Positions 305 to 14,310 of a stretch of DNA of 64,000 nucleotides are shown piece after piece (position 1 is the first letter of the stretch; every line of letters starts with the position of its first letter). Under the pieces are notes generated by a model. It was not told where the DNA came from. It searched no databases and was given only the letters and a program-made list of their open reading frames with translations. The translations under genes and the position numbers were made by a program. The DNA is from Methylobacter sp. S3L5C (GTDB lineage Bacteria > Pseudomonadota > Gammaproteobacteria > Methylococcales > Methylomonadaceae): NCBI RefSeq assembly GCF_022788635.1, contig NZ_CP076024.1, forward strand, positions 4,131,503 to 4,195,502, written 5' to 3'.

Positions 305-541
305 ATGTGCCTTGCGATTCCCATGCAAATTACCCATATTGATGGCTTTAATGCTCATTGTGACGCCAAGGGCGTAAAGCGCGATGTCAGTCTGTTTTTG
401 TTACAGGATGAGACATTGCAAGAGGGGGATTACCTGCTGATTCATGTTGGCTATGCCATCCAGAAAATTTCCGCAGAGGAAGCTCAGTCGACATGGGAAT
501 TACTTGATCAGATGCTGATTGAGGAAGATGCCGGTGCATGA
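305..541 (+). CDS. hypC: Hydrogenase maturation chaperone HypC
   Basis: The product has 78 residues, the normal size for HypC/HupF. It opens with MCLAIPMQI, the family signature in which Cys2 holds the Fe(CN)2CO precursor together with HypD and docks to the immature hydrogenase large subunit. A VGYAIQKI segment in the second half is also typical of the family. The start codon follows a region with no strong ribosome-binding site. The 3' end overlaps the hypA GTG start by 8 nt, so translation of the two is probably coupled. HypC and HybG/HupF cannot be told apart from sequence alone. Confidence 0.93.
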   Translation: MCLAIPMQITHIDGFNAHCDAKGVKRDVSLFLLQDETLQEGDYLLIHVGYAIQKISAEEAQSTWELLDQMLIEEDAGA

Positions 542-884
542 GCTTTCGCTTTGCGAGGACTTGATGGATCAGGTAATGACAATTGCAAAGACACATCACG
601 CGGAAAAAGTCGTTCGAATCATTGTCAGAATAGGTCCCCTTTCTGGTATCGAACCGTTGCTGCTGGAAAGCGCCTTCAACATCAGCTGCGCAGGCACATT
701 AGCCGAATCGGCAGAGTTTCTAACAGAAACTCTGCCGATTCTTGTTCTTTGCAACAACTGTGGAGCCGAATCTGAAGCCACCACTAATAATCTCTTATGC
801 CAAAGTTGCGGCGGTTATAATACCAAATTGTTGAGTGGTGACGAGTTGATTCTGGCACGTGTTGAATTAGAAAATGCAGACTAA
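534..884 (+). CDS. hypA: Hydrogenase nickel-insertion protein HypA
   Basis: I place the start at GTG 534, giving the canonical opening (V/M)HELSLCEDL, in which the residues after Met (His, Glu) form the nickel site. An upstream TTG at 519 would add five residues and destroy this N-terminus. The protein is 116 residues. A zinc ribbon lies in the C-terminal half as two CxxC pairs (CNNC and CQSC). HypA delivers nickel to the hydrogenase large subunit with HypB. It overlaps hypC by 8 nt and is followed by hypB after 27 nt, so it is part of the hyp operon. Confidence 0.92.
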   Translation: MHELSLCEDLMDQVMTIAKTHHAEKVVRIIVRIGPLSGIEPLLLESAFNISCAGTLAESAEFLTETLPILVLCNNCGAESEATTNNLLCQSCGGYNTKLLSGDELILARVELENAD

Positions 885-911
885 GACAAGTTAATTAATT
901 GGAGTGTGATT

Positions 912-1781
912 ATGTGTAATACCTGTGGTTGTAACATTACACCGGGTAATCGCCCGTTGGTTATGGCAGAAAAACCTAAAAATGGCGTGACGACAGTGTC
1001 GGTACTACAAAACTTGTTGTCAAAAAACAATCATCAAGCCGAGCACAATCGCGCACATTTTGACGCTCAAAAAGTACTGGTAATTAATTTAATGTCTTCA
1101 CCCGGTTCGGGTAAGACTGCATTACTTGAAGCTACCATCAAGCATCTGCGCGACTCGTTAAAAATCGCCGTCATCGAAGGCGATCTTGAAACCGAAAATG
1201 ATACCAAACGGATACAGGCACAAGGTGTGCCCGCTTATCAGATTACAACCGGGACGGCTTGTCATCTGGACGCGCATTTGGTGCATAATGCCTTGCATCA
1301 TCTGGCGCTGGATGGTCTGGATCTGTTATTTATTGAAAATGTAGGTAATCTGGTTTGCCCTGCCAGTTTTGATCTGGGTCATCATCGTAATGTCGTGTTA
1401 TTGTCAGTGACCGAAGGCGATGATAAGCCGGCAAAATATCCGGTTATGTTTCGTGCAGCCGACTTGATGTTAATCAGCAAGACTGATTTACTGCCGTATC
1501 TGGATGATTTTTCAGCCGTTAATGCTGAACAAAATCTGCATAATCTGGCCAACGATGCGCCCGTCATCGCTTTTAGCGCAAAAGACGGCAATGGCCTGGA
1601 TGCGTGGCTAACCTGGTTGCAGTCAGAAATAACCGCTTATCAGGCACTCTTACTTAAGCAACAGACACAACGCCCTAAAGTACAACAGGATGGGCAATTA
1701 CTTCATGCCCAACCCGGTAACACCAAGTTTTATCCGATCAGCAATAAAACTGCCCATAAAATTAATGTTAAACAGGCTTAA
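912..1781 (+). CDS. hypB: Hydrogenase nickel-incorporation GTPase HypB
   Basis: The start at ATG 912 is favoured because GGAG at 901-904 is correctly spaced and the product then begins MCNTCGC, the high-affinity nickel motif of HypB (Cys2, Cys5, Cys7). A GTG at 906 would bury it. The 289-residue protein has a G domain with the P-loop SSPGSGKT, the metal-switch region GDLETENDTKR, ENVGNLVCP, a guanine-specificity motif SKTD and SAKDG. There is no long polyhistidine stretch, only scattered His between the N-terminal motif and the G domain. About 45 residues after the G domain form a polar tail. It acts with HypA in GTP-dependent nickel insertion. Confidence 0.95.
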   Translation: MCNTCGCNITPGNRPLVMAEKPKNGVTTVSVLQNLLSKNNHQAEHNRAHFDAQKVLVINLMSSPGSGKTALLEATIKHLRDSLKIAVIEGDLETENDTKRIQAQGVPAYQITTGTACHLDAHLVHNALHHLALDGLDLLFIENVGNLVCPASFDLGHHRNVVLLSVTEGDDKPAKYPVMFRAADLMLISKTDLLPYLDDFSAVNAEQNLHNLANDAPVIAFSAKDGNGLDAWLTWLQSEITAYQALLLKQQTQRPKVQQDGQLLHAQPGNTKFYPISNKTAHKINVKQA

Positions 1782-1795
1782 CTAAAATATTTAGT

Positions 1796-1826
1796 CCACG
1801 AAAAGCACGAAAGACACGAAAAAAAG
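1796..1826. repeat. Half-copy of the dispersed ACGAA-rich repeat
   Basis: The sequence repeats CCACGAAAAGCACGAAAG then ACACGAAA. Similar words occur at 3070-3095, 3138-3190, 7228-7319, 28195-28231 and near 28970. It lies in the 198-bp hypB-hypD gap. Confidence 0.5.
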
Positions 1827-1913
1827 GCTTGGGTTAGCGCATGATGGGGTTTGCAAGCCATAGTAGTCTTCAAACGTTAGGGTAGGGAATTTATCTAATA
1901 AAATCTCCCCTAA

Positions 1914-1934
1914 CCCCTCTTTTTCAAAGAGGGG
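1914..1934. repeat. Perfect hairpin CCCCTCTTT-TTC-AAAGAGGGG
   Basis: A 9-bp perfect stem with a 3-nt loop lies in the hypB-hypD gap, embedded in a C/T-rich stretch that begins about 1905. No U-tract follows, so it is more likely a dispersed intergenic palindrome than a true terminator, though it could slow transcription inside the hyp operon. Confidence 0.55.
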
Positions 1935-1979
1935 AACTGTATAGTTACACTAAACTTAACATCATCTGGAATAAATACT

Positions 1980-3101
1980 ATGCCGACCGGCGCAAAACTA
2001 TTACTGGAAAAAATTCGTGAACTGCCCTTGCCTGATAAGGTTCGGATCATGAATGTTTGCGGCGGGCATGAGCGGTCCATTTCCATGGCGGGTTTGCGTA
2101 CTGCCCTGCCCGCTAATATTGAGCTGATTCCGGGGCCGGGTTGTCCGGTTTGTATTTGTCCGGAAGAAGATATTTATCAAGCCATACAAATCGCGATTAA
2201 TGAAGAGGTTGTGTTATTGGCCTTTGGCGATATGTTACGTGTTCCTGTTAATGTACCCAAAGCGGCTATTCGTACCTTGGAGCAGGCCAAAGCTGCAGGT
2301 GCAGATATCCGGCCCATTGCCTCGCCAACCGAAGCGGTTAAGATCGCCAGCGCCAACCCTGAAAAAACGGTCGTTTTTTTTGTCGCCGGTTTTGAAACCA
2401 CCTGCGCTCCGGTCGCGGCAATGCTTGCTGAAGGCATTCCTGATAATTTATTACTATTAATGAGCGGTCGTTTAACGTGGCCTGCCGTAGCCATGTTACT
2501 GGATTCTGACACGCCTGCTTTTGACGCCCTTATTGCGCCAGGCCATGTCGCCACTATTATGGGCTCAGAAGAATGGCGCTTTGTTGTTGATCAACATCAT
2601 ATTCCAACCGCCATCGCCGGATTTACTACCGAAAGTCTGTTGGCCGCCATTTATTCGGTATTACGCCAACTTATCGAACATAAGATATTTCTTGATAATT
2701 GTTACACTCAGGTAGTTACCGCAAAAGGCAATAACACAGCCCGAAAATTATTACACTCAACCCTTGATATTGTTGATGCACCTTGGCGAGGCATTGGCAT
2801 TATTCCACAATCCGGTCTTGAGTTAACGGCAAAGTTTGCCGCACATAATGCCCGATACCGTTTTCCTGTCTATGCTGACGAAGCCCGAAAAAAAGCCGGT
2901 ACCATGCCGCCGGGTTGTGATTGTGCAAAAGTTGTTTTAGGCAAAATCAAGCCGAATGAATGTCGTTTATACGGTGAATCCTGCGTGCCCCGAAATCCTG
3001 TAGGCCCCTGCATGGTATCCGATGAAGGCGCTTGTCGTATCTGGTGGGCATCAGGCATTAAAAATGGTTTGCCCACGAAAAGCATGAAAGTACCCGATTG
3101 A
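1980..3101 (+). CDS. hypD: Hydrogenase maturation protein HypD
   Basis: The 373-residue protein is full length for HypD. It shows the catalytic/iron-binding motifs CGGHE (27-31) and GPGCPVCICPE (52-62) and the C-terminal cysteine set of the [4Fe-4S] cluster (CDC, NEC, ESC, GPC, GAC within about residues 311-358). HypD is the scaffold on which the Fe(CN)2CO unit is built with HypC and HypE. It is separated from hypB by 198 bp with palindromes, so it may also have its own promoter. The last dozen codons (about 3068-3101) overlap a piece of the ACGAA-rich repeat, giving a C-terminal tail KSMKVPD that is probably repeat-derived. Confidence 0.95.
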   Translation: MPTGAKLLLEKIRELPLPDKVRIMNVCGGHERSISMAGLRTALPANIELIPGPGCPVCICPEEDIYQAIQIAINEEVVLLAFGDMLRVPVNVPKAAIRTLEQAKAAGADIRPIASPTEAVKIASANPEKTVVFFVAGFETTCAPVAAMLAEGIPDNLLLLMSGRLTWPAVAMLLDSDTPAFDALIAPGHVATIMGSEEWRFVVDQHHIPTAIAGFTTESLLAAIYSVLRQLIEHKIFLDNCYTQVVTAKGNNTARKLLHSTLDIVDAPWRGIGIIPQSGLELTAKFAAHNARYRFPVYADEARKKAGTMPPGCDCAKVVLGKIKPNECRLYGESCVPRNPVGPCMVSDEGACRIWWASGIKNGLPTKSMKVPD

Positions 3102-3135
3102 TGCTTAACCATTAAAAAATGGAATATATTATTTA

Positions 3136-3192
3136 TTCACCACGAAGACACGAAGAAAAACAAAAAATATAACTTCGTGTCTTCGTGGTGAA
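3136..3192. repeat. Perfect long inverted repeat (20-bp arms) between hypD and hypF
   Basis: CACCACGAAGACACGAAG at 3138-3155 is the exact reverse complement of 3173-3190, and two more flanking A/T pairs extend the stem to 20 bp. The loop is a 17-nt A-rich spacer. This is the cleanest copy of the dispersed ACGAAG palindrome family in the window. It may form a hairpin in the hypD-hypF transcript. Confidence 0.8.
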
Positions 3193-3272
3193 AATATTTT
3201 CTCGTGTCTTCATGATAAAAATCTTTAAAGCTTTGCCTGCGTTCATCCCAAAACTTATCCACCCCAACTAAA

Positions 3273-5570
3273 ATGTTTGAACAGGAAATTTATCTATTGA
3301 TTACTGACCAGCTTCAAGCCAGACAAATAACTATAACCGGCCGAGTACAAGGCGTTGGTTTCAGGCCTTTTGTCAGTCGACTGGCTAATCAACACAATTT
3401 ATCGGGCTGGGTACGTAACCGTGCCGGGCAAGTTGAAATATGGGTGCAAGGCTCCCTTAAAAATCTGGCATTATTTGAGCAACAATTACTAAGTAAAGCC
3501 CCGCCTTTAGCCCAGCCTGATCACCCTGTTACGCAAATAGTCACCGCTGTTGATCTTAACGTTTTTACCATACTGCCCAGTGTAGCCGGCGATGTCAGTC
3601 AGGCGCATGTTCCACCGGATTATTTTACTTGTGATGATTGTTTGGCAGAGATGCGCGATAAAACCCGGCGCCGTTATCGTTATCCCTTTATTAATTGCAC
3701 CCAATGCGGGCCACGCTACACCTTAATTAAACAATTGCCTTATGATCGCCCCAACACCAGCATGGCTGATTTTTTGCTGTGTTCAGAATGCCGTAAAGAC
3801 TATGAAAACCCGCTAGATCGACGCTTTCATGCCCAACCACTGGCCTGCCCAAATTGTGGCCCTACCCTTGCCTTTCATCGTCAAGGCAGTGCCGATATCA
3901 ATGACAACGAAGGGGCCATTAAGGCCACAATAGCAGCGCTACAAGCGGGCTTAATTGTAGCCGTTAAAGGTATCGGTGGTTATCATTTACTATGTTCAGC
4001 TACCTCGGAAGCGGTCGTCTTAAAACTGCGCCTTCGTAAACAGCGCCGCTTTAAACCCTTGGCAATCATGTTGCCCTGGTCTGGTGCTGATGGTCTTGAT
4101 CAGGTTCGATGCTACACTAAGACATCGGCAACTGAACTGGCACAACTGACTGATCCAAGCCGCCCTATCGTGCTGATAAAAAAACGCCTGAATACCGACT
4201 TAGCAAAATCAGTAGCGCCTGAAATGCATGAATTAGGCATCATGCTACCATATAGTCCCCTGCATCATTTATTACTGCAAGACTATGGCGCGCCATTAAT
4301 TGCCACCTCTGCCAACATCAGCGGCGAACCGGTACTAACTAAAGCTGAGCAGGTTGAAAGTCGCTTAGGGCTAATCGCCGATGCTTTTTTACATCATAAT
4401 CGACCGATATTAAGACCTGCGGATGACAGCGTCTACAAAGTTATCGGGGATTCTGCACGCGCCATAAGAGTAGGTCGTGGAATGGCACCGCTAGAGTTTA
4501 CTTTACCATTTTCTTTAGACTACCCCTTGTTGGCGGTGGGTGGTCAAATGAAAAACACCATTGCTCTGGCTTGGGACCAGCGTGTCGTTATTTCTCCCCA
4601 TTTAGGCGATCTTGGCTCACCAAGAAGCCAACAGGTATTTGAACAAACCATCGCCGACCTTACCCGACTTTATGGCCTTACCGTCAAGCAATGTGTTTGC
4701 GATGCGCACCCGGATTACAGCGCCAGTCGCTGGGCTGAACGCTCAGGCCTTACCGTGCATAAAGTATTTCATCATCATGCCCATGCTTCCGCTTTAGCCG
4801 CTGAACATAAAATTGCAGAAACCCTGCTGGTATTTACTTGGGATGGCACAGGCTTCGGCGAAGATGGCACAATCTGGGGCGGTGAAGGTTTATTGGGTAA
4901 ACCGGGAGACTGGCGACGGGTAAGTTCATTTAGGCCTTATCACTTACCAGGAGGTGAAAAAGCCGGACGAGAACCTTGGCGCAGCGCGTTGGCTTTATGT
5001 TGGCAGCAAGGCGATGATTGGCGTGAATGCCCGGTCGAAACCGGTTTACTTAAACAAGCCTGGCAAAAACAAATTAACAGCCCGTTATCGAGTTCAGTTG
5101 GCCGCTTGTTTGATGCCGCCGCCGCACTAACCGGCATGGTACAACAGGCCGATTTTGACGGCCATGCGCCGATGTGGCTGGAAGCTGCAGGCTCCGGCAT
5201 AGCATCTGCAGGTATTGATTTGCCGCTGACTTGCAATAGAGACGGCTTATGGTTAAGCGATTGGGCACCGCTGCTCTCGATGCTACAAAATCAACACTTA
5301 ACCCTCTCAAAACGCAGTAGTTGTTTTCATGCCAGTCTGGCAATGGCATTAGTTAAACAGGCCAAGCAAATACAAACCGAACATCAGTTTATTAGCGTGG
5401 GTTTAACCGGTGGCGTTTTTCAAAATCGTTTATTAACCGACTATGTCACCTCTTTATTGCAGGCAGAAGGCTTTACTGTCTGTATGCCAAAGCAGATCCC
5501 CGGCAATGATGCCGGCATCAGTTTTGGGCAAATCATCGACGCCGGAAGTTGTCTGTCTACAACAAGATAA
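3273..5570 (+). CDS. hypF: Carbamoyltransferase HypF
   Basis: The product has 765 residues and all HypF domains in order. An acylphosphatase-like domain with GRVQGVGFRPF spans about 18-105. Two zinc fingers follow, with Cys120/123, Cys142/145, Cys170/173 and Cys192/195. Then come a YrdC-like domain (about 210-385) and a Kae1-like domain (about 400-760) with HHHAHASALAAEH and GLTGGVFQN. HypF converts carbamoyl phosphate to the carbamoyl-adenylate that becomes the cyanide ligands, passing the group to HypE. The first 17 residues precede the acylphosphatase fold and could be an N-terminal extension. It ends the hyp gene run; no hypE lies next to it. Confidence 0.95.
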   Translation: MFEQEIYLLITDQLQARQITITGRVQGVGFRPFVSRLANQHNLSGWVRNRAGQVEIWVQGSLKNLALFEQQLLSKAPPLAQPDHPVTQIVTAVDLNVFTILPSVAGDVSQAHVPPDYFTCDDCLAEMRDKTRRRYRYPFINCTQCGPRYTLIKQLPYDRPNTSMADFLLCSECRKDYENPLDRRFHAQPLACPNCGPTLAFHRQGSADINDNEGAIKATIAALQAGLIVAVKGIGGYHLLCSATSEAVVLKLRLRKQRRFKPLAIMLPWSGADGLDQVRCYTKTSATELAQLTDPSRPIVLIKKRLNTDLAKSVAPEMHELGIMLPYSPLHHLLLQDYGAPLIATSANISGEPVLTKAEQVESRLGLIADAFLHHNRPILRPADDSVYKVIGDSARAIRVGRGMAPLEFTLPFSLDYPLLAVGGQMKNTIALAWDQRVVISPHLGDLGSPRSQQVFEQTIADLTRLYGLTVKQCVCDAHPDYSASRWAERSGLTVHKVFHHHAHASALAAEHKIAETLLVFTWDGTGFGEDGTIWGGEGLLGKPGDWRRVSSFRPYHLPGGEKAGREPWRSALALCWQQGDDWRECPVETGLLKQAWQKQINSPLSSSVGRLFDAAAALTGMVQQADFDGHAPMWLEAAGSGIASAGIDLPLTCNRDGLWLSDWAPLLSMLQNQHLTLSKRSSCFHASLAMALVKQAKQIQTEHQFISVGLTGGVFQNRLLTDYVTSLLQAEGFTVCMPKQIPGNDAGISFGQIIDAGSCLSTTR

Positions 5571-5845: not shown

Positions 5846-6256
5846 ATGTTGATTGATAATAAGCAAACCACCATAGTGGTTATTGATGATGATGTACTAC
5901 AGCACAAAATCATCAATAATTGCCTTAAGGATGAACCCTATAAAATAATTTCATTACTACGTGGTGAAACTGCTCTGACTTTCTTGCTCATGAATCGGCC
6001 GGATCTCATTCTATTGGATATTAATATGCCCGACTTTTCCGGAATAGAGATATTACAACGGATAAAAAGCTACAAACATCTTTCCGGCGTGCCCATCATC
6101 ATGGTAACGGGCGACAAAAATAGAGATACCATTATAGAATGCATAAAAAAAGGGGCTACTAATTACATTATTAAACCTTTCACGCGGTCTTTACTTATAG
6201 AAAAAGTCGGAACAGCATTAACCACCGCCACATTAGCCACTGAAAATGACGACTAA
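5846..6256 (+). CDS. Single-domain response regulator (CheY-like)
   Basis: The 136-residue protein is a bare receiver. The acidic pocket is IDDD (14-17), the phosphoacceptor Asp lies in LLDINMP at about residue 58, Thr is in MVTGD and the conserved Lys in IIKPF. No output domain follows. It is separated from hypF by 275 bp of AT-rich DNA and converges with the HDOD gene 19 bp downstream. Such stand-alone receivers usually act as phosphate shuttles or bind a partner protein. Its position next to an HDOD protein and a large hybrid kinase suggests it may be fed by that kinase, but nothing in the sequence proves the pairing. Confidence 0.9.
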   Translation: MLIDNKQTTIVVIDDDVLQHKIINNCLKDEPYKIISLLRGETALTFLLMNRPDLILLDINMPDFSGIEILQRIKSYKHLSGVPIIMVTGDKNRDTIIECIKKGATNYIIKPFTRSLLIEKVGTALTTATLATENDD

Positions 6257-6275
6257 TAACGCGATGTAGTTTATT

Positions 6276-7130
6276 CTATTCACTTTTTAAAAGAATTTCA
6301 TTCACATCCCATAACAAATCATCCAATTGATCTTTGGACAAATAAAGATAAGCAAGTAATTCTGCTTTATAATTTGTCCACTCATAACTTTTGAAATAAG
6401 TATCACCGTTCGCAATGATATATTCTGCCAGTTGAGTAATAGTAATCATATTCAGTTCTGCCGTCGATAATTGTTTTGACGAAAATATATCCAAATCATG
6501 GTGCCTTCCTATGGCATTACGTATGCTTTTTGGAAGCCCCCATGCCCTTGCCAACAGAGCACCTGTCAGCATGTGATCAGTTAAGTAGCGGGACGTTTCA
6601 ATCGAGATTAAATTTTCATCGGGTGCAGCGGCAAGTTGCAATGTTTCGTGATAATCGGAAAAGCGCTGCATCATCAGAATCTCACCAGAGTCATGGAATA
6701 GACTATATAAATGTACCTCATCCTTATCAATACCATCAATACGTTTGGTCAAATAATTTGATACCATTGCCGTACGGGTATTGTTATTCCAATAATGTTC
6801 CATACCAAGGGCAGGTGCAATATTACGCAAGGAAAAAGCCGTAACTAAAGTAGCAATATTTTTAATACCTAACAGAATTATAGCGCGCTCAATACTGTCC
6901 ACTTCATTACGCAAGCCGTAATATGCTGAATTGATAGTTTTTAATACCGCTGCTGAAAGTCCTACGTCAGTTTTAATCAATCGCGCTATCTCACGCGGAC
7001 ATCCCCCGTCACTTTTGCTTTGCTCCTGCATAACAGCAACTAAAATAACAGGCTGAGGTGGAATAATAATGCCTTTGAGTAGCTCTTGGGCCTCAGTATC
7101 ACTTAAAGTATCAACTAGCTCTTTATTCAT
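6276..7130 (-). CDS. HDOD-domain signalling protein
   Basis: I choose ATG 7130 (MNKELVDTLSD), giving 284 residues. The longer reading to 7283 runs through an ACGAA-type dispersed repeat and adds 51 unlikely residues; ATG 7160 is a second option. No clear ribosome-binding site decides between them. The HDOD core spans about 20-215, with IIPPQPVILVAVMQE, the DVGLSAAVLKTINSAYYGL segment and an HD-superfamily-like helix region HLYSLFHDSGEILMMQRF. HDOD proteins lack the full HD metal site and act in signalling as protein-interaction or nucleotide-responsive modules. It lies downstream of the hybrid kinase on the same strand, separated by a hairpin repeat. Confidence 0.85.
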   Translation of the reverse strand: MNKELVDTLSDTEAQELLKGIIIPPQPVILVAVMQEQSKSDGGCPREIARLIKTDVGLSAAVLKTINSAYYGLRNEVDSIERAIILLGIKNIATLVTAFSLRNIAPALGMEHYWNNNTRTAMVSNYLTKRIDGIDKDEVHLYSLFHDSGEILMMQRFSDYHETLQLAAAPDENLISIETSRYLTDHMLTGALLARAWGLPKSIRNAIGRHHDLDIFSSKQLSTAELNMITITQLAEYIIANGDTYFKSYEWTNYKAELLAYLYLSKDQLDDLLWDVNEILLKSE

Positions 7131-7227
7131 AATGTCGTTGGGGTTAGTAATAACAAGCATTAGATATAGGAAATAAGACCACCCTGAGAAGCTGTGAAAG
7201 TATTCGTTTTTTGTACAAAATAAAAAA

Positions 7228-7319
7228 CTCACTACGAAGGCACAAGAAGTACACAAAGTTTTTAATGCGTTGAATAAAAGCAATTATTTTTCTTCGTGTA
7301 CTTCATGTCTTCGTGGTGA
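7228..7319. repeat. Imperfect inverted repeat of the ACGAAG family
   Basis: The arm at 7228-7258 and the reverse complement of 7291-7319 match over about 29 positions with a few mismatches and one gap, around a 32-bp loop. It lies between the kinase and HDOD genes. The left arm accounts for the false upstream extension of the HDOD reading frame. Confidence 0.7.
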
Positions 7320-7342
7320 ATAAGGTTTTTAAAAAAATAATT

Positions 7343-10300
7343 TCATATTAATTCCTGTGTTGGCTCATCGGGCCAGGCAAGCAAATATTTTTGTAATACA
7401 CTCCACTCCCCCTCAAAATCAGCTAACAAGCCCTTAAGCATAATCTCATTACCGGATTTTCCGGCACTCTCAAGTTGTGCGCAGAGCTCACCAAAGCTGA
7501 TTGCTCCGACGCTGAGCGCTGACGCTTTTAACTTATGAGCTGCGTTACCTGCCGCAATAATATCTCCGTTATTAATAGCCGCGATTATTTCTGCACTTAT
7601 CTCAATGGCAATAATAGTAAAATAGTTCAGAAACTCGGAAATAGTCTCTGGATCATCGCCAACCAACTCTTTTAAGACACACATCTCCCGGTCCAGAACC
7701 GGCTTCAACAAATTATTTATATCAGCAGTATTAACCGACAAAGATTGTATATTTAAGACATTATCAATGCAATCCGACATCAATAAATCATCTGCATATT
7801 CTTTTATCGGTGATTTGGCGGTATCAATAGCCGTTATCGTCACGGCAGAAGGATTTACCCATTGCACCAACGTTGATAAGAGTAGCGATGGATTGATAGG
7901 CTTACTGATAAAATCATTCATACCTGCTTCCAAGCATTGGCCTCTTTCCTCTTCGGTTACACCGGCCGTGAGTGCAATTACCGGCAGATTTGCAAAGCAC
8001 GGCTGGTTACGTATCTCCCTGGTTGCAGCAAAGCCATCCATGATAGGCATGTGGATATCCATCAACACCGCATCAAACTCGCTTTGCTCAAGAAAGGTCA
8101 GCGCTTCTTTGCCGTTATTGGCAATCTCAACGCTAATGCCGGATAAGACAAGAAATTCCCGAATAATTTGCTGATTAAAAAGATTATCTTCTGCCACCAA
8201 AATACGGATGCCGACAAGCTGTCTGCCAAACTCCTGCAACGCTGAACTGAGCGTTCCCGATGGTTGCTTGATTTTTTCCCGGAAAGACTCAGAAGACAAG
8301 CCAAAAACCAACTCAAAGCTAAAGCTGCTACCCACTTCGGGCATACTTTCTACTATAAGATTGCCGCCCATCAGCTTTACCAGATTATGACTAAGTGCCA
8401 GTCCAAGGCCAGTTCCTCCAAACCGACGCGTAATAGAGTCATCAGCCTGACTGAAAGGCTGGAATAATTTTCCCTGTTCCTTGCTGGACATGCCAATACC
8501 GGTATCTTTAACACAACACAATATCCGGGCTTGTAATGAATCACTGTCCAGCAAACTTATATTAAGACTGACAGAACCGCTCGCGGTAAACTTGACCGCA
8601 TTACCCAACAGGTTAACCAGTACTTGTTGCAGGCGGAGCTCATCACCAATCATGTTACACGGCATATCTGGCGCGATATCTATAGAAAATTTCAGACCCT
8701 TTTTTTCGGCACTATCAATAAATAACGTATTGAGCATGTTCCTTAGCTCATCAACAGCAAACAAGCCAAGACTAAGGCTGACACCTCCTGCATCCAGTTT
8801 GGATAAATCCAAAATATCATTCAGTATGCCCAGCAGCCCTATTGAAGAGGTGTTAATCTTGGTTAGATAATCCCGTATGTCAAAAGGCATCTCTCTGAGT
8901 AATGCCAGTTCCGAGAAACCAATGATGCCATTCATTGGCGTGCGAATTTCATGTGACATATTAGCCAGAAATTGCGCCTTTGATTTGGCAAGCCCTTCAG
9001 CCTGCATTACAGTGGCTAAAGTCAGTTTTTTGATAACCTCATCCGCCTGCTTACGTGCAGTATTATCTGTGCCGATTAGCAGATAACCAATAATCGACTC
9101 TTGAGCATCGCGTAGCGCAGTCACTGATACAATAGCCGGAAAACGGCTGCCATCCTTACGGATATAAGTCAGCTCATAAATATCTTCAATGCCGCGCGAA
9201 GCCTTAAAAACCAACGCGTCAAAGCCCGGTGCAATCGGCGTCTCAAGTTCCTCGGTGAGCGCTTTGGCGCGTGCGATCACTTCCTGGGGATCAGAGATAT
9301 CAGCCGGCGTGATTTTATTCATCACCTCATCGGCCTTATAACCCAACATGTTTTCCGCACCGACATTAAAAATCTGAATAACGCCATTCGCATCGGTGGC
9401 AATACTGGAAAAATTGGCGCTGTTAAAAATGGCATTTTGTAATGCCCCAGCCTTACTTAGCGCCTCTTCTGCCTGCTTGCGCGCAGTATTGTCGGTACCA
9501 ATCAGTAGATAACCAATAATCAACTCTTGATCATCGCGTAGCGCAGTCACTGATACAATAGCCGGAAAACGGCTGCCATCCTTACGGATATAAGTCAGCT
9601 CATAAATATCTTCAATGCCGCGCGAAGCCTTAAAAACCAACGCGTCAAAGCCCGGTGCAATCGGTGTATCAAGTTCCTCGGTGAGCGCTTTGGCGCGTGC
9701 GATCACTTCCTGGGGATCAGAGATATCAGCCGGCGTGATTTTATTCATCACCTCCTCGGCCTTATAACCCAACATGTTTTCCGCACCGACATTAAAAATC
9801 TGAATAACGCCATTCGCATCGGTGGCAATACTGGAAAAGTTGGCGCTGTTAAAAATGGCTTTCTGCAATGCCCCAGCCTTGCTTAGCGCCTCTTCTGCCT
9901 GCTTGCGCGCGGTATTGTCAGTACCAATCAGCAGATAACCGATGATCAACTCTTGATCATCGCGAAGTGCAGTCACTGACACAATCGCCGGAAAATGGCT
10001 GCCATCCTTACGGATACAAGTCAGCTCATAAATATCTTCAATACCGCGCGAAGCCTTAAAAACCAAGGCTTCAAAGCCCGGTGCAATCGGTGTCTCAAGC
10101 TCCTCACTAAGCGCTTTGGCACGTACGACTAGTTCTTGCGGATCAGAGAGTTCAGCCGGCGTGATTTTGTTCATCACCTCATCGGCCTTATAACCCAACA
10201 TGTTTTCCGCACCGACATTAAAAATCTGAATAACGCCATTCGCATCGGTGGCAATACTGGAAAAATTGGCGCTGTTAAAAATGGCATTTTGTAATGCCCC

Positions 10301-11635
10301 AGCCTTACTTAGCGCCTCTTCTGCCTGCTTGCGTGCGGTATTGTCAGTACCAATCAGTAGATAACCAATAATCAACTCTTGATCATCGCGTAGTGCAGTC
10401 ACTGATACAATAGCCGGAAAACGGCTGCCATCCTTACGGATATAAGTCAGTTCATAAATATCTTCAATGCCGCGCGAAGCCTTAAACACCAAGGCTTCAA
10501 AACCGGGTGCAATCGGTGTATCAAGTTCCTCGGTGAGCGCTTTGGCGCGTGCGATCACTTCCTGGGGATCAGAGATATCAGCCGGCGTGATTTTATTCAT
10601 CACCTCCTCGGCCTTATAACCCAACATGTTTTCCGCACCGACATTAAAAATCTGAATAACGCCATTCGCATCGGTGGCAATACTAGAAAAGTTGGCACTG
10701 TTAAAAATGGCATTTTGTAATGCCGCAGCCTTACTTAGCGCCTCTTCTGCCTGCTTGCGTGCGGTATTGTCGGTACCAATCAGTAGATAACCGATAATCA
10801 ACTCTTGAGCATCGCGTAGCGCAGTCACTGACACAATCGCTGGAAAATGGCTGCCGTCCTTACGGATATAAGTCAGATCATAAATATCTTCAATACCACG
10901 CGAAGCCTTAAACACCAAGGCTTCAAAACCGGGCGCAATCGGTGTCCCAAGTTCCTCGGTGAGCGCTTTGGCGCGTACGATCACTTCCTGGGGATCAGAG
11001 ATATCAGCCGGCGTGATTTTATTCATCACCTCATCGGCCTTATAACCCAACATGTTTTCCGCACCGACATTAAAAATCTGAATAACGCCATTCGCATCGG
11101 TGGCAATACTGGAAAAATTGGCGCTGTTAAAAATGGCATTTTGTAATGCCCCAGCCTTACTTAGCGCCTCTTCCGCCTGCTTGCGCGCGGTATTGTCGGT
11201 ACCAATCAGTAGATAGCCAATAATCGACTCTTGAGCATCGCGTAGTGCAGTCACTGACACAATCGCCGGAAAATGGCTGCCATCCTTACGGATACAAGTC
11301 AGCTCATAAATATCTTCAATACCGCGCGAAGCTTTAAATACCAAGGCTTCGAAGCCCGGTGCAATGGGTGTCTCAAGCTCCTCACTAAGCGCTTTGGCAC
11401 GTACGACTAGTTCTTGCGGATCAGAGAGTTCAGCCGGCGTGATTTTGTTCATCACCTCCTCGGCCTTATAACCCAACATGTTTTCCGCACCGACATTAAA
11501 AATCTGAATAACGCCATTCGCATCGGTGGCAATACTGGAAAAGTTGGCGCTGTTAAAAATGGCATTTTGCAATGCCCCGTTTTCTGGAGTCTGAGCGGTC
11601 CACTCAACTCCCAGACTTTTATTATTTTTTTTCAT
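7343..11635 (-). CDS. Hybrid sensor kinase: six near-identical PAS units, HisKA, HATPase, REC, HPt
   Basis: The 1430-residue protein has no transmembrane segment or signal peptide, so it should sense in the cytoplasm. Residues 20-871 are six consecutive 142-residue PAS/PAC units that differ at only a handful of positions. HisKA follows with phosphoacceptor His895 in MSHEIRTPMNG. The HATPase domain (about 1000-1112) has N- and G-box features GNAVKF, DTGIGM and GGTGLGL. The receiver (about 1142-1260) has EDN, Asp1193 and a Lys at about 1245. A C-terminal HPt domain carries His1367 in AAHKLKAS. All catalytic motifs look intact, so a complete His-Asp-His phosphorelay is possible in one chain. It follows the REC-GGDEF gene after 37 bp and is probably the last gene of that operon. 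The ligand of the PAS units is unknown. Confidence 0.93.
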   Translation of the reverse strand: MKKNNKSLGVEWTAQTPENGALQNAIFNSANFSSIATDANGVIQIFNVGAENMLGYKAEEVMNKITPAELSDPQELVVRAKALSEELETPIAPGFEALVFKASRGIEDIYELTCIRKDGSHFPAIVSVTALRDAQESIIGYLLIGTDNTARKQAEEALSKAGALQNAIFNSANFSSIATDANGVIQIFNVGAENMLGYKADEVMNKITPADISDPQEVIVRAKALTEELGTPIAPGFEALVFKASRGIEDIYDLTYIRKDGSHFPAIVSVTALRDAQELIIGYLLIGTDNTARKQAEEALSKAAALQNAIFNSANFSSIATDANGVIQIFNVGAENMLGYKAEEVMNKITPADISDPQEVIARAKALTEELDTPIAPGFEALVFKASRGIEDIYELTYIRKDGSRFPAIVSVTALRDDQELIIGYLLIGTDNTARKQAEEALSKAGALQNAIFNSANFSSIATDANGVIQIFNVGAENMLGYKADEVMNKITPAELSDPQELVVRAKALSEELETPIAPGFEALVFKASRGIEDIYELTCIRKDGSHFPAIVSVTALRDDQELIIGYLLIGTDNTARKQAEEALSKAGALQKAIFNSANFSSIATDANGVIQIFNVGAENMLGYKAEEVMNKITPADISDPQEVIARAKALTEELDTPIAPGFDALVFKASRGIEDIYELTYIRKDGSRFPAIVSVTALRDDQELIIGYLLIGTDNTARKQAEEALSKAGALQNAIFNSANFSSIATDANGVIQIFNVGAENMLGYKADEVMNKITPADISDPQEVIARAKALTEELETPIAPGFDALVFKASRGIEDIYELTYIRKDGSRFPAIVSVTALRDAQESIIGYLLIGTDNTARKQADEVIKKLTLATVMQAEGLAKSKAQFLANMSHEIRTPMNGIIGFSELALLREMPFDIRDYLTKINTSSIGLLGILNDILDLSKLDAGGVSLSLGLFAVDELRNMLNTLFIDSAEKKGLKFSIDIAPDMPCNMIGDELRLQQVLVNLLGNAVKFTASGSVSLNISLLDSDSLQARILCCVKDTGIGMSSKEQGKLFQPFSQADDSITRRFGGTGLGLALSHNLVKLMGGNLIVESMPEVGSSFSFELVFGLSSESFREKIKQPSGTLSSALQEFGRQLVGIRILVAEDNLFNQQIIREFLVLSGISVEIANNGKEALTFLEQSEFDAVLMDIHMPIMDGFAATREIRNQPCFANLPVIALTAGVTEEERGQCLEAGMNDFISKPINPSLLLSTLVQWVNPSAVTITAIDTAKSPIKEYADDLLMSDCIDNVLNIQSLSVNTADINNLLKPVLDREMCVLKELVGDDPETISEFLNYFTIIAIEISAEIIAAINNGDIIAAGNAAHKLKASALSVGAISFGELCAQLESAGKSGNEIMLKGLLADFEGEWSVLQKYLLAWPDEPTQELI
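9023..11578 (-). repeat. Six tandem 426-bp coding repeats (PAS/PAC array)
   Basis: Unit borders, read on the - strand: 11578-11153, 11152-10727, 10726-10301, 10300-9875, 9874-9449 and 9448-9023. All are exactly 426 bp. Long stretches are identical at DNA level, for example around the GAENMLGYKA segment in each unit. One position alternates strictly: KAEE in units 1, 3, 5 and KADE in units 2, 4, 6. Units 1 and 4 share the variant AELSDPQELVVR, while units 2, 3, 5 and 6 carry ADISDPQEV. The alternation points to growth by duplicating a two-unit block, followed by gene conversion. Confidence 0.93.
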
Positions 11636-11672: not shown

Positions 11673-12587
11673 CTATATCACATAAACAGATACTTGGTTA
11701 CCGCCATTTTTTGTTGCACTATTAACTCCGCTGTTTGCTGCTTCGCAGAGTATCTTGGGGAATAAATTTTGCGAAACAGCAATTTTAGTGGCCACCCCTA
11801 CACTAATCGTGACAAAACCGGCTGTTGAGTCAATATGGACTACCCCCAACTTTTCAACACTCTCACGCAGGCCTTCGGCAATCTGTAAAGCAGTCTTTTC
11901 ATCGGCGTCCGGCAGAATAACCATAAAGGTATCGTTGTTATATCTGGCAATAAAATCGCCCGGCCGCTCCAGATTTTTTGCTAAAGTAATGGCAAGCATT
12001 TTTAACAATATATCGCCAATGCCATAGCCATATTCATCGATATAACCTTTGAAATAATCGACATTGATTTCCAGCAATGATAATGATGTTTTATCACGCA
12101 TGGCGCGCCGCCATTCTGACACCAGGGTTTCATCAAAACGACGATGATTGGGAATAAGTGTCAGTGCATCAATCATCGCGAGAGATTCCAATAAGTCAGC
12201 TTGCTGCTTAAGTTGGATGTGATTACGGATACGGGCCTTAACAATCGGGATGGCGATAGGTTTGGTAATGTAGTCAACGGCGCCAAGGTTTAAACCCTGC
12301 TCCTCATTAATTTCACCACTCAAAAGCGTCAAGAACATCACGGCAATTTTACAAGTCTGCGCATTTTCCTTCAAATGTCGGCAAACTTCAAAACCATTCA
12401 TTTTTGGCATCATGATATCCAAAAGGATTAAATCCGGCTGCTCACGCTCTGCAATCTCCAGCGCATCCTTACCATTATTGGCTACTTTAATGCGATAACC
12501 TGAACCTAAAGCTTCCGCAAGAATTTTGATGTTGACGGGCATATCGTCAACAATAAGTATCATTGGATAATGTTGGGTAATGATCAT
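11673..12587 (-). CDS. Response regulator with degenerate GGDEF domain and intact RxxD site
   Basis: The 304-residue protein has an intact receiver (1-120: DD at 14-15, phosphoacceptor Asp57, Lys109) and a C-terminal GGDEF-type domain (about 135-300). The signature motif is NNDTF (217-221) in place of GGDEF, and the DxLTGLxNRR motif is changed to DALTLIPNHRR, so diguanylate cyclase activity is unlikely. The allosteric inhibitory-site motif RxxD is kept as RPGD (208-211) at the usual spacing, so it may bind cyclic di-GMP as a receptor; this is inference. The start ATG overlaps the stop of the upstream REC-HPt gene as ATGA, indicating coupled translation. Confidence 0.88.
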   Translation of the reverse strand: MIITQHYPMILIVDDMPVNIKILAEALGSGYRIKVANNGKDALEIAEREQPDLILLDIMMPKMNGFEVCRHLKENAQTCKIAVMFLTLLSGEINEEQGLNLGAVDYITKPIAIPIVKARIRNHIQLKQQADLLESLAMIDALTLIPNHRRFDETLVSEWRRAMRDKTSLSLLEINVDYFKGYIDEYGYGIGDILLKMLAITLAKNLERPGDFIARYNNDTFMVILPDADEKTALQIAEGLRESVEKLGVVHIDSTAGFVTISVGVATKIAVSQNLFPKILCEAANSGVNSATKNGGNQVSVYVI

Positions 12588-13633
12588 AAGGTCTCTTGTA
12601 TATCCGGGAGTACTACCAATTGTTGCAACAATAAGCGTGCATCTTGGTAGTGAAGATCGTAGATTAATTTTCGTAAGCGAATAAACAGCTTAAATTTTAC
12701 CGTTGCCAAATTTTCCATAAGATTATTTAACAAGATTTCAGGGATAAAATCATGCTCTCTTAGTAACGCATCTAGTTCGTTGATACAGTGCCGCACTATT
12801 TCACTATTACCGGTATTTTGGGGCGACACTATGGCAGGCTGCGGCGGTAGGGTAATCTTCGACATGGTTTTGACAAAAACAGCATTGAAATCATTAACCA
12901 TGGCAGCAGTCGGCAACCCTTCCTTTAGTTGCGTTTGCAATAGTATTGCTGCCGCATGCAATTGCAAGGCCCCCAGATTACCAGCGACACCTTTAAGACT
13001 ATGTATATGTGCCCAGATAGAGGAGATATCCTTTACTGTTATCATGGCGGCAATTTCAGCCGGAAAATTTTGCATGTCCTCCTTAAAATCAACTAATAAT
13101 CGGTCCGTCAAATCTTGATTATTACCCAGCATCACTAATAGCGCGGTCTTGTCAAAATACGGCAATTCTTTAATAGGCGGCTCTTGTTCAACAGTCTCTA
13201 TACTTTCAGGCACAATATCGCTATCAGTTGCCATTACGCCACGAAATTTTATCCAGCGCACCAGTGCTGACGTAAGCAAAGTCGGATTAATGGGTTTACT
13301 GATCATATCGTTCATGCCTGCAGCCATATATTGATCGCGTTCTGCTTCAGATACCGCAGCCGTGAGTGCAATGATCGGTAACTTGGCAAAACGTGGCTGA
13401 CTACGTAGTTGCTGTGTAGCGGTAATACCATCCATAACCGGCATGTTGATATCCATTAATACCGCATCAAATTTAACCATCTCCAATAATGCTAACGCTT
13501 CTTTGCCATTATTGGCAAACTCGACATTAATACCCAATAAGTTGAGAAATTTCTGGATAATTTTCTGATTAAAAAGATTATCTTCAGCGACCAGAATATG
13601 TAAACCAACCAACTGTTTATTAAAATCATTCAA
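12584..13633 (-). CDS. REC-HPt protein, remnant of a truncated hybrid kinase
   Basis: The 349-residue protein has a receiver (about 8-130: AEDN, phosphoacceptor Asp61, Lys in SKPINP) and an HPt domain with His211 in HIHSLKG. The receiver closely resembles the one inside the large hybrid kinase downstream: AEDNLFNQ, ANNGKEAL, FDAVLMDI and AGMND are shared, as is the QLVG preceding it. Directly upstream, a decayed HisKA sequence is readable, so this is the surviving 3' part of a second hybrid kinase that lost its ATPase domain. The reading frame itself is intact and may work as a phosphorelay intermediate. It heads the operon with the REC-GGDEF and six-PAS kinase genes. Confidence 0.87.
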   Translation of the reverse strand: MNDFNKQLVGLHILVAEDNLFNQKIIQKFLNLLGINVEFANNGKEALALLEMVKFDAVLMDINMPVMDGITATQQLRSQPRFAKLPIIALTAAVSEAERDQYMAAGMNDMISKPINPTLLTSALVRWIKFRGVMATDSDIVPESIETVEQEPPIKELPYFDKTALLVMLGNNQDLTDRLLVDFKEDMQNFPAEIAAMITVKDISSIWAHIHSLKGVAGNLGALQLHAAAILLQTQLKEGLPTAAMVNDFNAVFVKTMSKITLPPQPAIVSPQNTGNSEIVRHCINELDALLREHDFIPEILLNNLMENLATVKFKLFIRLRKLIYDLHYQDARLLLQQLVVLPDIQETL

Positions 13634-14125: not shown

Positions 14126-14226
14126 ACAGCACCAATTATTGTTCCTTGTTACCTCATATGGTCAGGGCATACATAGACTATTTCTGTTGGCTATTTCATA
14201 GCCTTAAAGAGCTATTCAAGATTATT

Positions 14227-14310
14227 GGTAAGCCTACCCAGTGTTTTGGTATGTACACCCAGTGTTTTGGTAAGTCCACTAACTGTTTTAGTAGGTACGC
14301 CAACTGTTTT
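14227..14310. repeat. Minisatellite: four tandem 21-bp units
   Basis: Units start at 14227, 14248, 14269 and 14290. Each has the form GGTAnGnnnnCCnAnTGTTTT with a few differences. Both strands are open across it; on the - strand the unit would encode a heptapeptide like TKTLGVH. The flanking reading frames do not resemble known proteins, so it is treated as an intergenic repeat in the gap 13831-14580. Confidence 0.85.

Follow-up and report, generated by a model that had tools for sequence, protein, structure and literature searches.

The locus

The PAS array considered here is in a gene of Methylobacter sp. S3L5C, a methane-eating bacterium from a lake, and was analysed within a stretch of 64,000 nucleotides of its DNA (the window). 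The product of the gene is, to judge by its domains, a hybrid histidine kinase with phosphorelay domains, since HisKA, HATPase_c, receiver and Hpt all score above their Pfam cut-offs in the one ORF, and it is probably cytoplasmic (Table 1). Ahead of these domains are six PAS units, each exactly 142 residues or 426 bp, which follow one another without spacers over 9020-11575, much as the first-pass annotation had them, its unit phase being 3 bases away from the present bounds, which is immaterial. TRF, independently, gives a period of 426 with 6.0 copies, 93% matches and 0% indels over 9037-11578. Pairs of units within the array differ at 15-54 of 426 nucleotides (DNA identity 87-96.5%) and at 2-17 of 142 residues. 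As had also been described, an alternation of Glu and Asp is strict across the six units (codon 39, GAG/GAT), and the variant AELSDPQELVVR is confined to units 1 and 4.

Table 1. Features of the array kinase gene and its neighbours (positions are those of the window)
Feature	Position	Strand	Remarks
Receiver-Hpt gene, upstream	12584..13633	-	same strand; candidate phosphorelay partner, by adjacency
Receiver-GGDEF gene, upstream	11673..12587	-	same strand; candidate output partner, by adjacency
Hybrid histidine kinase ORF	7343..11635	-	1430 aa; just 20 residues ahead of unit 1
PAS unit 1	11150..11575	-	variant AELSDPQELVV, Cys94, His101
PAS unit 2	10724..11149	-	142 residues
PAS unit 3	10298..10723	-	used as query in genome draws
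PAS unit 4	9872..10297	-	variant AELSDPQELVV, Cys94, His101
PAS unit 5	9446..9871	-	142 residues
PAS unit 6	9020..9445	-	end unlike units 1-5; joins kinase directly, without second PAS
HisKA dimerisation/phosphoacceptor domain	8786..8980	-	aa 886-950, Pfam
HATPase_c	8309..8647	-	aa 997-1109, Pfam
Receiver domain (Response_reg)	7871..8203	-	aa 1145-1255, Pfam
Hpt domain	7436..7603	-	aa 1345-1400, Pfam
HDOD-domain protein gene, downstream	6276..7283	-	same strand; domain search

Membership of the PAS superfamily is seen with PAS_9 (PF13426; 237.9 bits, cut-off 27) and PAS (PF00989; 219.6 bits, cut-off 22.6), each matching six stretches of the kinase, and with TIGR00229 sensory_box of NCBIfam, which matches seven. 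Weak Pfam matches of CARF_Card1, Rotamase_3 and POL3_N over the array, no single stretch of which passes alone, are read as chance matches summed over the repeats. For the kinase part, ArcB, BarA and TorS (NF008302, NF008318, TIGR02956) are among the best-scoring NCBIfam matches listed, and the array kinase shares their HK, REC and Hpt domains; membership of those families was rejected, as the scores of 292, 378 and 352 fall short of their curated cut-offs (838, 890 and 676.5).

Spread and constraint of the PAS clade

As a rule, PAS domains are recognised chiefly by their fold. The clade to which the present units belong, of 142 residues and near-fixed pitch, is here named U, and its loci among the best 80 of 562 relatives, a selection that biases identities upward, are 82-88% identical to unit 1 in eight phyla, going by record titles. 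In these best 80 of 562 loci, counted without duplicates, 91 of 99 neighbouring unit starts less than 300 residues apart are exactly 142 residues apart, as are five of five in the window array, and natural arrays have 1 to 6 units at the one pitch. The median identity is 87% for units versus 40% for kinase cores (52 kinases including that of the window, 1324 pairs), with unit identity exceeding core identity in 98.0% of pairs when the first unit is taken and in 99.8% when the last is. U is joined to differing kinase cores and, less often, to GGDEF outputs; a second PAS domain lies between the last unit and the kinase in 52 of 60 kinases (best 80 of 562 loci). Nineteen charged columns in U are kept at 90% or above. 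EF-Tu was located in 23 of 36 genomes tried, and the best unit pairs in those 23, which are from several phyla, are 83-92% identical and in 22 of them surpass EF-Tu in conservation.

How widespread is U? Among evenly drawn genomes it is present at 71% identity or above in 8 of 194 Verrucomicrobiota, 10 of 199 Acidobacteriota and 2 of 201 Chloroflexota, counts that include 1, 2 and 1 genomes known beforehand to carry it. Identities in these draws are bimodal, either 71-90% or at most 56%; U is set apart from other PAS domains by this gap in three phyla and is nearly invariant across them. For the window's own genus the gap is not a clean one, its units being at 61-93% with several species at 61-72%. 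Of 252 plasmid records one exceeds 80%, the complete plasmid of Gemmatirosa kalamazoonensis at 83%, and the other 251 are below 60%. A search of PHROGs with unit 1 gave 0 families, no clade-specific model is among the Pfam matches or among the NCBIfam matches listed (25 of 149), and no description of a module or PAS array of this kind was found in the open-licence PMC literature.

Fourfold sites differ between loci by 0.51, where 0.58 is expected at saturation, and amino acid identity is 86%. With synonymous sites so nearly saturated and amino acid identity so high, U is under strong purifying selection, to which the dN/dS of 0.11 among the window units also points, and this across a patchy spread. 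Could such a domain simply be ancient, extremely constrained, vertically inherited and lost in most lineages, with no horizontal transfer at all? The near saturation does imply that most pairs parted long ago, and the purifying selection is also in keeping with that history. However, it needs U to be missing or lost from the majority of genomes in every sampled group, it has to accommodate units in several species of the window's own genus that are well below the 85-90% found in other phyla, and the best unit pairs being more conserved than EF-Tu counts against it as well, so that, though it has the most in its favour of the alternatives weighed, vertical descent is unlikely. The spread of U has probably been horizontal. 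Since the unit tree is weak, with 76 of its 194 inner branches open and its starred branches forcing at most two changes per phylum, the case for transfer leans more on patchiness, bimodality and the comparison with EF-Tu than on the tree.

Growth of the array

Is ordinary recent tandem duplication, with a two-unit block as the mode of growth, enough to explain the likeness of the six units? They form one clade in the unit tree (SH-aLRT 100, the cut unit of M. psychrophilus being left out), their mean DNA identity of 92% is well above the 74% to units of other genomes (selected loci), and in the closest pairs units 3 and 5 are merely 15 nucleotides apart and units 1 and 4 merely 17. However, mean protein identity is 93% within the array and still 84% to those selected loci of other genomes. 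The initial observation that the units are far closer to one another than is usual for PAS domains is correct. Nearly the same closeness extends across other phyla, however, and recent duplication is therefore not the whole cause; as a full account it is refuted by this likeness across phyla, the best pairs in the 23 genomes with EF-Tu included. Nor is the array very young, as unit dS within it (0.14-0.43, mean 0.26, dN/dS 0.11) is comparable with the dS of 0.35-0.36 between S3L5C and its M. psychrophilus ortholog. The two-unit block, which had been deduced from the alternation, found no support: the pattern 1,3,5 versus 2,4,6 is at 2 of 36 informative sites and the pattern 1,4 versus the rest at 14 of 36, while the alternating split ties for sixth among the ten 3+3 splits. 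Altogether, that recent duplication alone accounts for the array is quite improbable. Duplication of a three-unit block, which ranks 3 among 15 pairings, is not established.

What did hold of the history first proposed is exchange between units. Among pairs of sites 253 of 630 are incompatible and compatible sites are clustered (PHI p=0.0002, NSS p=0.019), and a 77-bp tract is the same in all six units (p about 1e-4). Such homogenisation is no general rule: of the 63 loci with more than one unit, 23 are monophyletic, and amino acid identity within one locus, 88.5%, is hardly higher than the 86.1% between loci.

Unit number and assembly

According to its genome report, the S3L5C chromosome of 4,815,745 bases was assembled by Unicycler from PacBio and Illumina data (PMC9723741). 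The count of six is that of this published hybrid assembly, with the window inside a single contig. The expectation that such an array is prone to collapse in assembly is borne out in drafts, as contigs of the nearest relative, M. psychrophilus, stop at its array on both sides, and 33 of 86 module ORFs are cut, all in loci that reach a contig end (best 80 of 562 loci). With contigs breaking inside them, such arrays are probably undercounted in draft genomes. Unit number differs among homologous kinases of different species at 82-86% kinase identity, one having three units and six others two, and the natural range from one to six is a ready dose series on what repeated sensor domains give a kinase. 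Mis-binning or contamination of metagenome assemblies is a very improbable source of the near-identity across phyla. In its favour, many of the best 80 of 562 loci are MAG contigs, several sharing projects and with the cut ORFs just mentioned, and in one genome, called Opitutaceae, EF-Tu is present in two copies (79% and 66%), suggestive of a contaminated bin. Against it, the module is also on the complete G. kalamazoonensis plasmid and in records whose titles do not mark them as MAGs (Sphingomonas JC676, Janthinobacterium CG3, Massilia eurypsychrophila). In four single contigs from the draws of Verrucomicrobiota and Acidobacteriota it lies over 1 Mb into the contig, and unit GC3 tracks locus GC (r=0.88), unlike a single contaminant.

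What the units may do

LOV photosensors have a conserved adduct-forming Cys, PYP a chromophore-binding Cys and FixL-type heme PAS domains a conserved heme-ligating His. The first two readings were rejected, as 167 of 178 units from other genomes are without Cys, which is in at most 5 units per column, and so was a FixL-type His-ligated heme, with His missing from 153 of the 178 and its commonest column holding 7, though some other residue could ligate heme. Trp is missing from 176 of them. A FAD-binding PAS of the NifL/MmoS type gave no match in sequence or profile searches; in the PDB the best match by sequence with one unit (phmmer) is FixL at E 0.048, the best by profile is WalK at E 0.00016 through split partial matches, and MmoS is missing from both sets. 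AlphaFold models from 68-row and 52-row alignments have poor pLDDT values of 57.5 and 58.7, perhaps since so uniform a family carries too little information. The low-confidence model has a PAS-like order of strands and helices, and Foldseek with the 57.5 model places LOV near, meaningful for fold alone, and NifL at E 5.5e-5 to 1e-4.

FixL (heme) and MmoS (FAD) have two PAS domains with the cofactor in one (PMC8534201). The likeness is of PAS domains in tandem before a kinase, MmoS being likewise from a methanotroph; the difference is that the present array has six units, all nearly equal, in which no His, Cys or Trp is conserved. In PpsR, long helices (S-helix) with a proposed role in signal transfer and dimerisation connect the PAS domains; it is a transcription factor of N-domain, PAS1 and PAS2 rather than a repeat array of one clade (PMC3949515).

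What would keep a PAS domain at 82-90% identity across phyla while the attached kinase varies? The contrast suggests a task both exceptionally exacting and widespread, for which a common intracellular ligand and strict unit-to-unit contacts are candidates. A bolder idea, tentative and distinctly doubtful, is that the whole surface of U, pocket included, is frozen as units must fit other U units, with the arrays of different kinases, and units of unlike origin, able to stack or pair in a shared signalling assembly. It would explain the pitch, the charged columns, the likeness across phyla and the ease of array growth, and if true would set U apart, as a PAS scaffold of the repeat type, from the PAS sensors known to us.

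A proposed history and mechanism

The reading we prefer, at a probability of about 0.6, is that of a hybrid kinase with an array of U, a circulating constrained module, which grew within its gene and signals through stacked helices. U would be a rare and patchy module, held nearly unchanged by purifying selection and apparently handed between bacterial lineages; unequal exchange within the gene would have led to six units in the S3L5C lineage, and exchange among them would keep the six alike. By analogy with PpsR, the kinase may be a parallel dimer with its six units stacked on a near-continuous helix, the end of one unit leading into the start of the next, and every unit may sample one common intracellular signal. 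Altered helix packing, on the same analogy, would be conveyed to HisKA and from there by a His-Asp-His relay to REC and Hpt, and perhaps onward to the neighbouring REC-GGDEF protein. ORFs with only a receiver are present at 17 of the 34 clade-U loci that span 9 kb or more, signalling families alone having been sought.

A PAS module shared across phyla

What the comparisons point to above all is that the PAS clade of the array units, here U, is a strongly constrained module, shared across phyla and repeated at near-fixed pitch. Searches of open-licence papers for the module or for PAS arrays found no description of it. When the most N-terminal unit (unit 1) was scanned against one genome per species there were at least 562 relatives, the best 80 of which are 82–88% identical to it, a likeness whose mean is biased since the loci were picked for it. 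Those 80 loci belong, by record titles that are sometimes vague ('Deltaproteobacteria' for L043, for instance, was counted as Myxococcota), to Pseudomonadota (alpha, beta, gamma and others), Thermodesulfobacteriota, Myxococcota, Acidobacteriota, Verrucomicrobiota, Gemmatimonadota, Chloroflexota and Planctomycetota. Unit length is 142 residues in 207 of 211 units (206 were retained, with the window array and one paralog counted twice; between-genome counts use the 178 units of the best 80 loci), and in these loci the spacing between neighbouring starts, where it is below 300 aa, is exactly 142 aa in 91 of 99 cases. Unit numbers of 1, 2, 3, 4, 5 and 6 occur in 9, 26, 13, 3, 1 and 1 of 53 uncut ORFs, the longest uncut arrays having five units in L043, a Deltaproteobacteria bin, and six in a Gallionellaceae bin (L076); the window gene is one of the longer U arrays seen. 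One array, in a Rhodocyclales bin, is divided over two reading frames, which either a genuine frameshift or faulty assembly would explain.

Is such a module a discrete entity? In the three phyla drawn it is. Even genome draws (E ≤1e-20, at most 20 candidates scored per genome) remove the likeness-selection bias, seeds excepted. Matches were found in 19 of 194 Verrucomicrobiota genomes, eight (including the seed, G319) at a best identity of 72–89% and the other 11 at 53% or below; in 14 of 199 Acidobacteriota, ten at 81–90% (including G318 and G320, previously found by the unit 1 scan) and four at 56% or below; and in eight of 201 Chloroflexota, two (one the seed) at 85 and 88% and the others at 48% or below. 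Plasmid records show the same gap, with one at 83% and 251 below 60%. At a stricter E of 1e-40, ten of 274 genomes of the window's class match, nine (its own included) at 73% or above and one at 57%. Within the window's genus (E 1e-35; 12 of 35 genomes match, at 61–93% outside the window array) the gap is blurred, members of other phyla often being closer than congeners.

Constraint and probable transfer

Fourfold-site divergence between loci is 0.51, versus 0.58 expected at saturation with these codon usages, while the unit proteins are 86% identical, from which it follows that most pairs split long ago and have been under strong purifying selection. Unit GC3 tracks the GC of the surroundings (r=0.88). 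EF-Tu of the window genome was matched, at 60–89%, in 23 of 36 genomes that carry the module; the 13 without a match are uninformative. The best unit pair exceeds EF-Tu identity in 22 of the 23, the exception being Crenothrix polyspora (89 and 89%), a comparison tilted toward the unit because the genomes were found by it. The two unlike EF-Tu copies (79% and 66%) in the genome of L110 point to a mixed bin. Rarity within phyla, together with identity above that of EF-Tu, is most readily explained by transfer combined with constraint. Phylum changes on the unit tree number 33 (67.5 after shuffling; the minimum is 7), few of them forced by starred branches; the tree is weak but compatible with transfer.

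The window array and its history

Translation and Tandem Repeats Finder (period 426, 6.0 copies, 0 indels) bear out the first-pass annotation of six back-to-back units, each of exactly 142 residues or 426 bp and without a spacer. Pairs differ at 15–54 of 426 nt and 2–17 of 142 aa. The window sits within a single contig of 4,815,745 bases, from PacBio and Illumina reads assembled with Unicycler (PMC9723741), and the number six is that of the published assembly. In the protein, Pfam recognises six PAS stretches, followed by HisKA, HATPase_c, receiver and Hpt domains.

Features located in the window and at related loci
Feature	Location	Strand	Remark
Hybrid kinase ORF	window 7343-11635	(-)	ORF translation, 1430 residues
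hypA, hypB-like (CobW/HypB/UreG), hypD, hypF	window 519-5570	(+)	hydrogenase maturation
Response regulator	window 5846-6256		
21-base tandem repeat	window 14225-14310		~3 copies; no ORF ≥100 aa
Divided U array	L103, ~6001-7340		two reading frames
Second PAS (example)	L054, from ~6853	(+)	
Purine-rich short repeat	L134, 2112-2243		end of G002:C65
Hybrid kinase cluster	G000:C1:2595000-2613000 (L139)		window genome

The annotation had further proposed duplication of a two-unit block followed by gene conversion. Both variant patterns that it named, the alternating site and the variants of units 1 and 4 only, are present, yet only the exchange between units is borne out. Among 36 two-state informative sites, 14 join units 1 and 4 and five join units 1, 2 and 4; just two have the alternating 1,3,5|2,4,6 pattern, a split tied sixth among the ten possible 3+3 splits, and the two-unit block is not supported. 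A three-unit-block pairing ranks third of fifteen. Conflict in 253 of 630 site pairs, with compatible sites clustered (PHI p=0.0002, NSS p=0.019), is the signature of exchange and upholds conversion. The six units share one identical 77-bp tract (unit nt 40–116; p ~1e-4 versus random placement by codon position); as the corresponding codons 14–38 are about as variable within other arrays as the rest (fourfold variability 0.35 versus 0.36–0.44), it looks like local homogenisation. Homogenisation of the kind found in the window array is not general, since no more than 23 of the 63 loci with several units are monophyletic.

All 15 unit pairs are under purifying selection (mean dN 0.027, mean dS 0.257, ratio 0.11). 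Their ages span the divergence from Methylobacter psychrophilus Z-0021 (G002), with whose partial ortholog the gene has a dS of 0.35–0.36: units 1 and 6 are older (0.43), units 1 and 4 younger (0.14). That strain likely has an array too, because its contig C33 starts within the last unit and C65 stops shortly past the upstream gene. Among 35 genomes of the genus, only this strain's and the window's give whole-kinase best matches at E=0. Where C65 stops ahead of the array there is a purine-rich short repeat, outside the window-aligned stretch.

Partner domains and signalling

The 86 module ORFs of the best 80 loci comprise 60 with recognised output, all kinases, 22 that are cut and four without a recognised output. 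Elsewhere, paralogs in the window genome have units joined to kinases and, at L141, to GGDEF-EAL; at L150, in another genome, units are joined to GGDEF. Across 52 kinases (the window's and those 51 of the 60 that combine a kinase match over 180 residues with a unit of exactly 142 residues), median pairwise identity over 1324 pairs is 87% for units versus 40% for kinase cores. Between last unit and kinase, 52 of the 60 have a second conserved PAS, with a motif like QRLRDQQFYTRSL (exact in 28 ORFs) and, for the 54 segments of 130–150 residues, a median pairwise identity of 79%, which merits separate study; in the window gene, unit 6 joins the kinase directly. Four large hybrid kinases, 55–64% identical to that of the window, are clustered elsewhere in its genome; a U unit is present in two of them, scoring 257 and 220 bits.

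Of what might U be a sensor? Its signal is probably cytoplasmic, as predicted from the short leads: of 79 ORFs open to an upstream stop, 52 have at most 60 residues ahead of the first unit. A few leads look hydrophobic by eye (L051, L065). His is absent from 153, Cys from 167 and Trp from 176 of the 178 units from other genomes, a pattern that disfavours His-ligated heme as well as LOV or PYP chemistry. In 68 rows chosen for diversity (two of the 2278 pairs reach at least 90% identity), 23 of the 142 columns never vary and another 65 show conservation of 90% or more; 19 of these 88 are charged, which hints at surface contacts. Structure prediction yielded no reliable model. By analogy with PpsR and S-helix work (PMC3949515; PMC1592074), the signal may pass along helices linking the units. 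The adjacent same-strand REC-GGDEF and REC-Hpt genes suggest that a c-di-GMP-linked relay could follow. Also in the window are a short tandem repeat and, just past a response regulator, the hydrogenase maturation genes.
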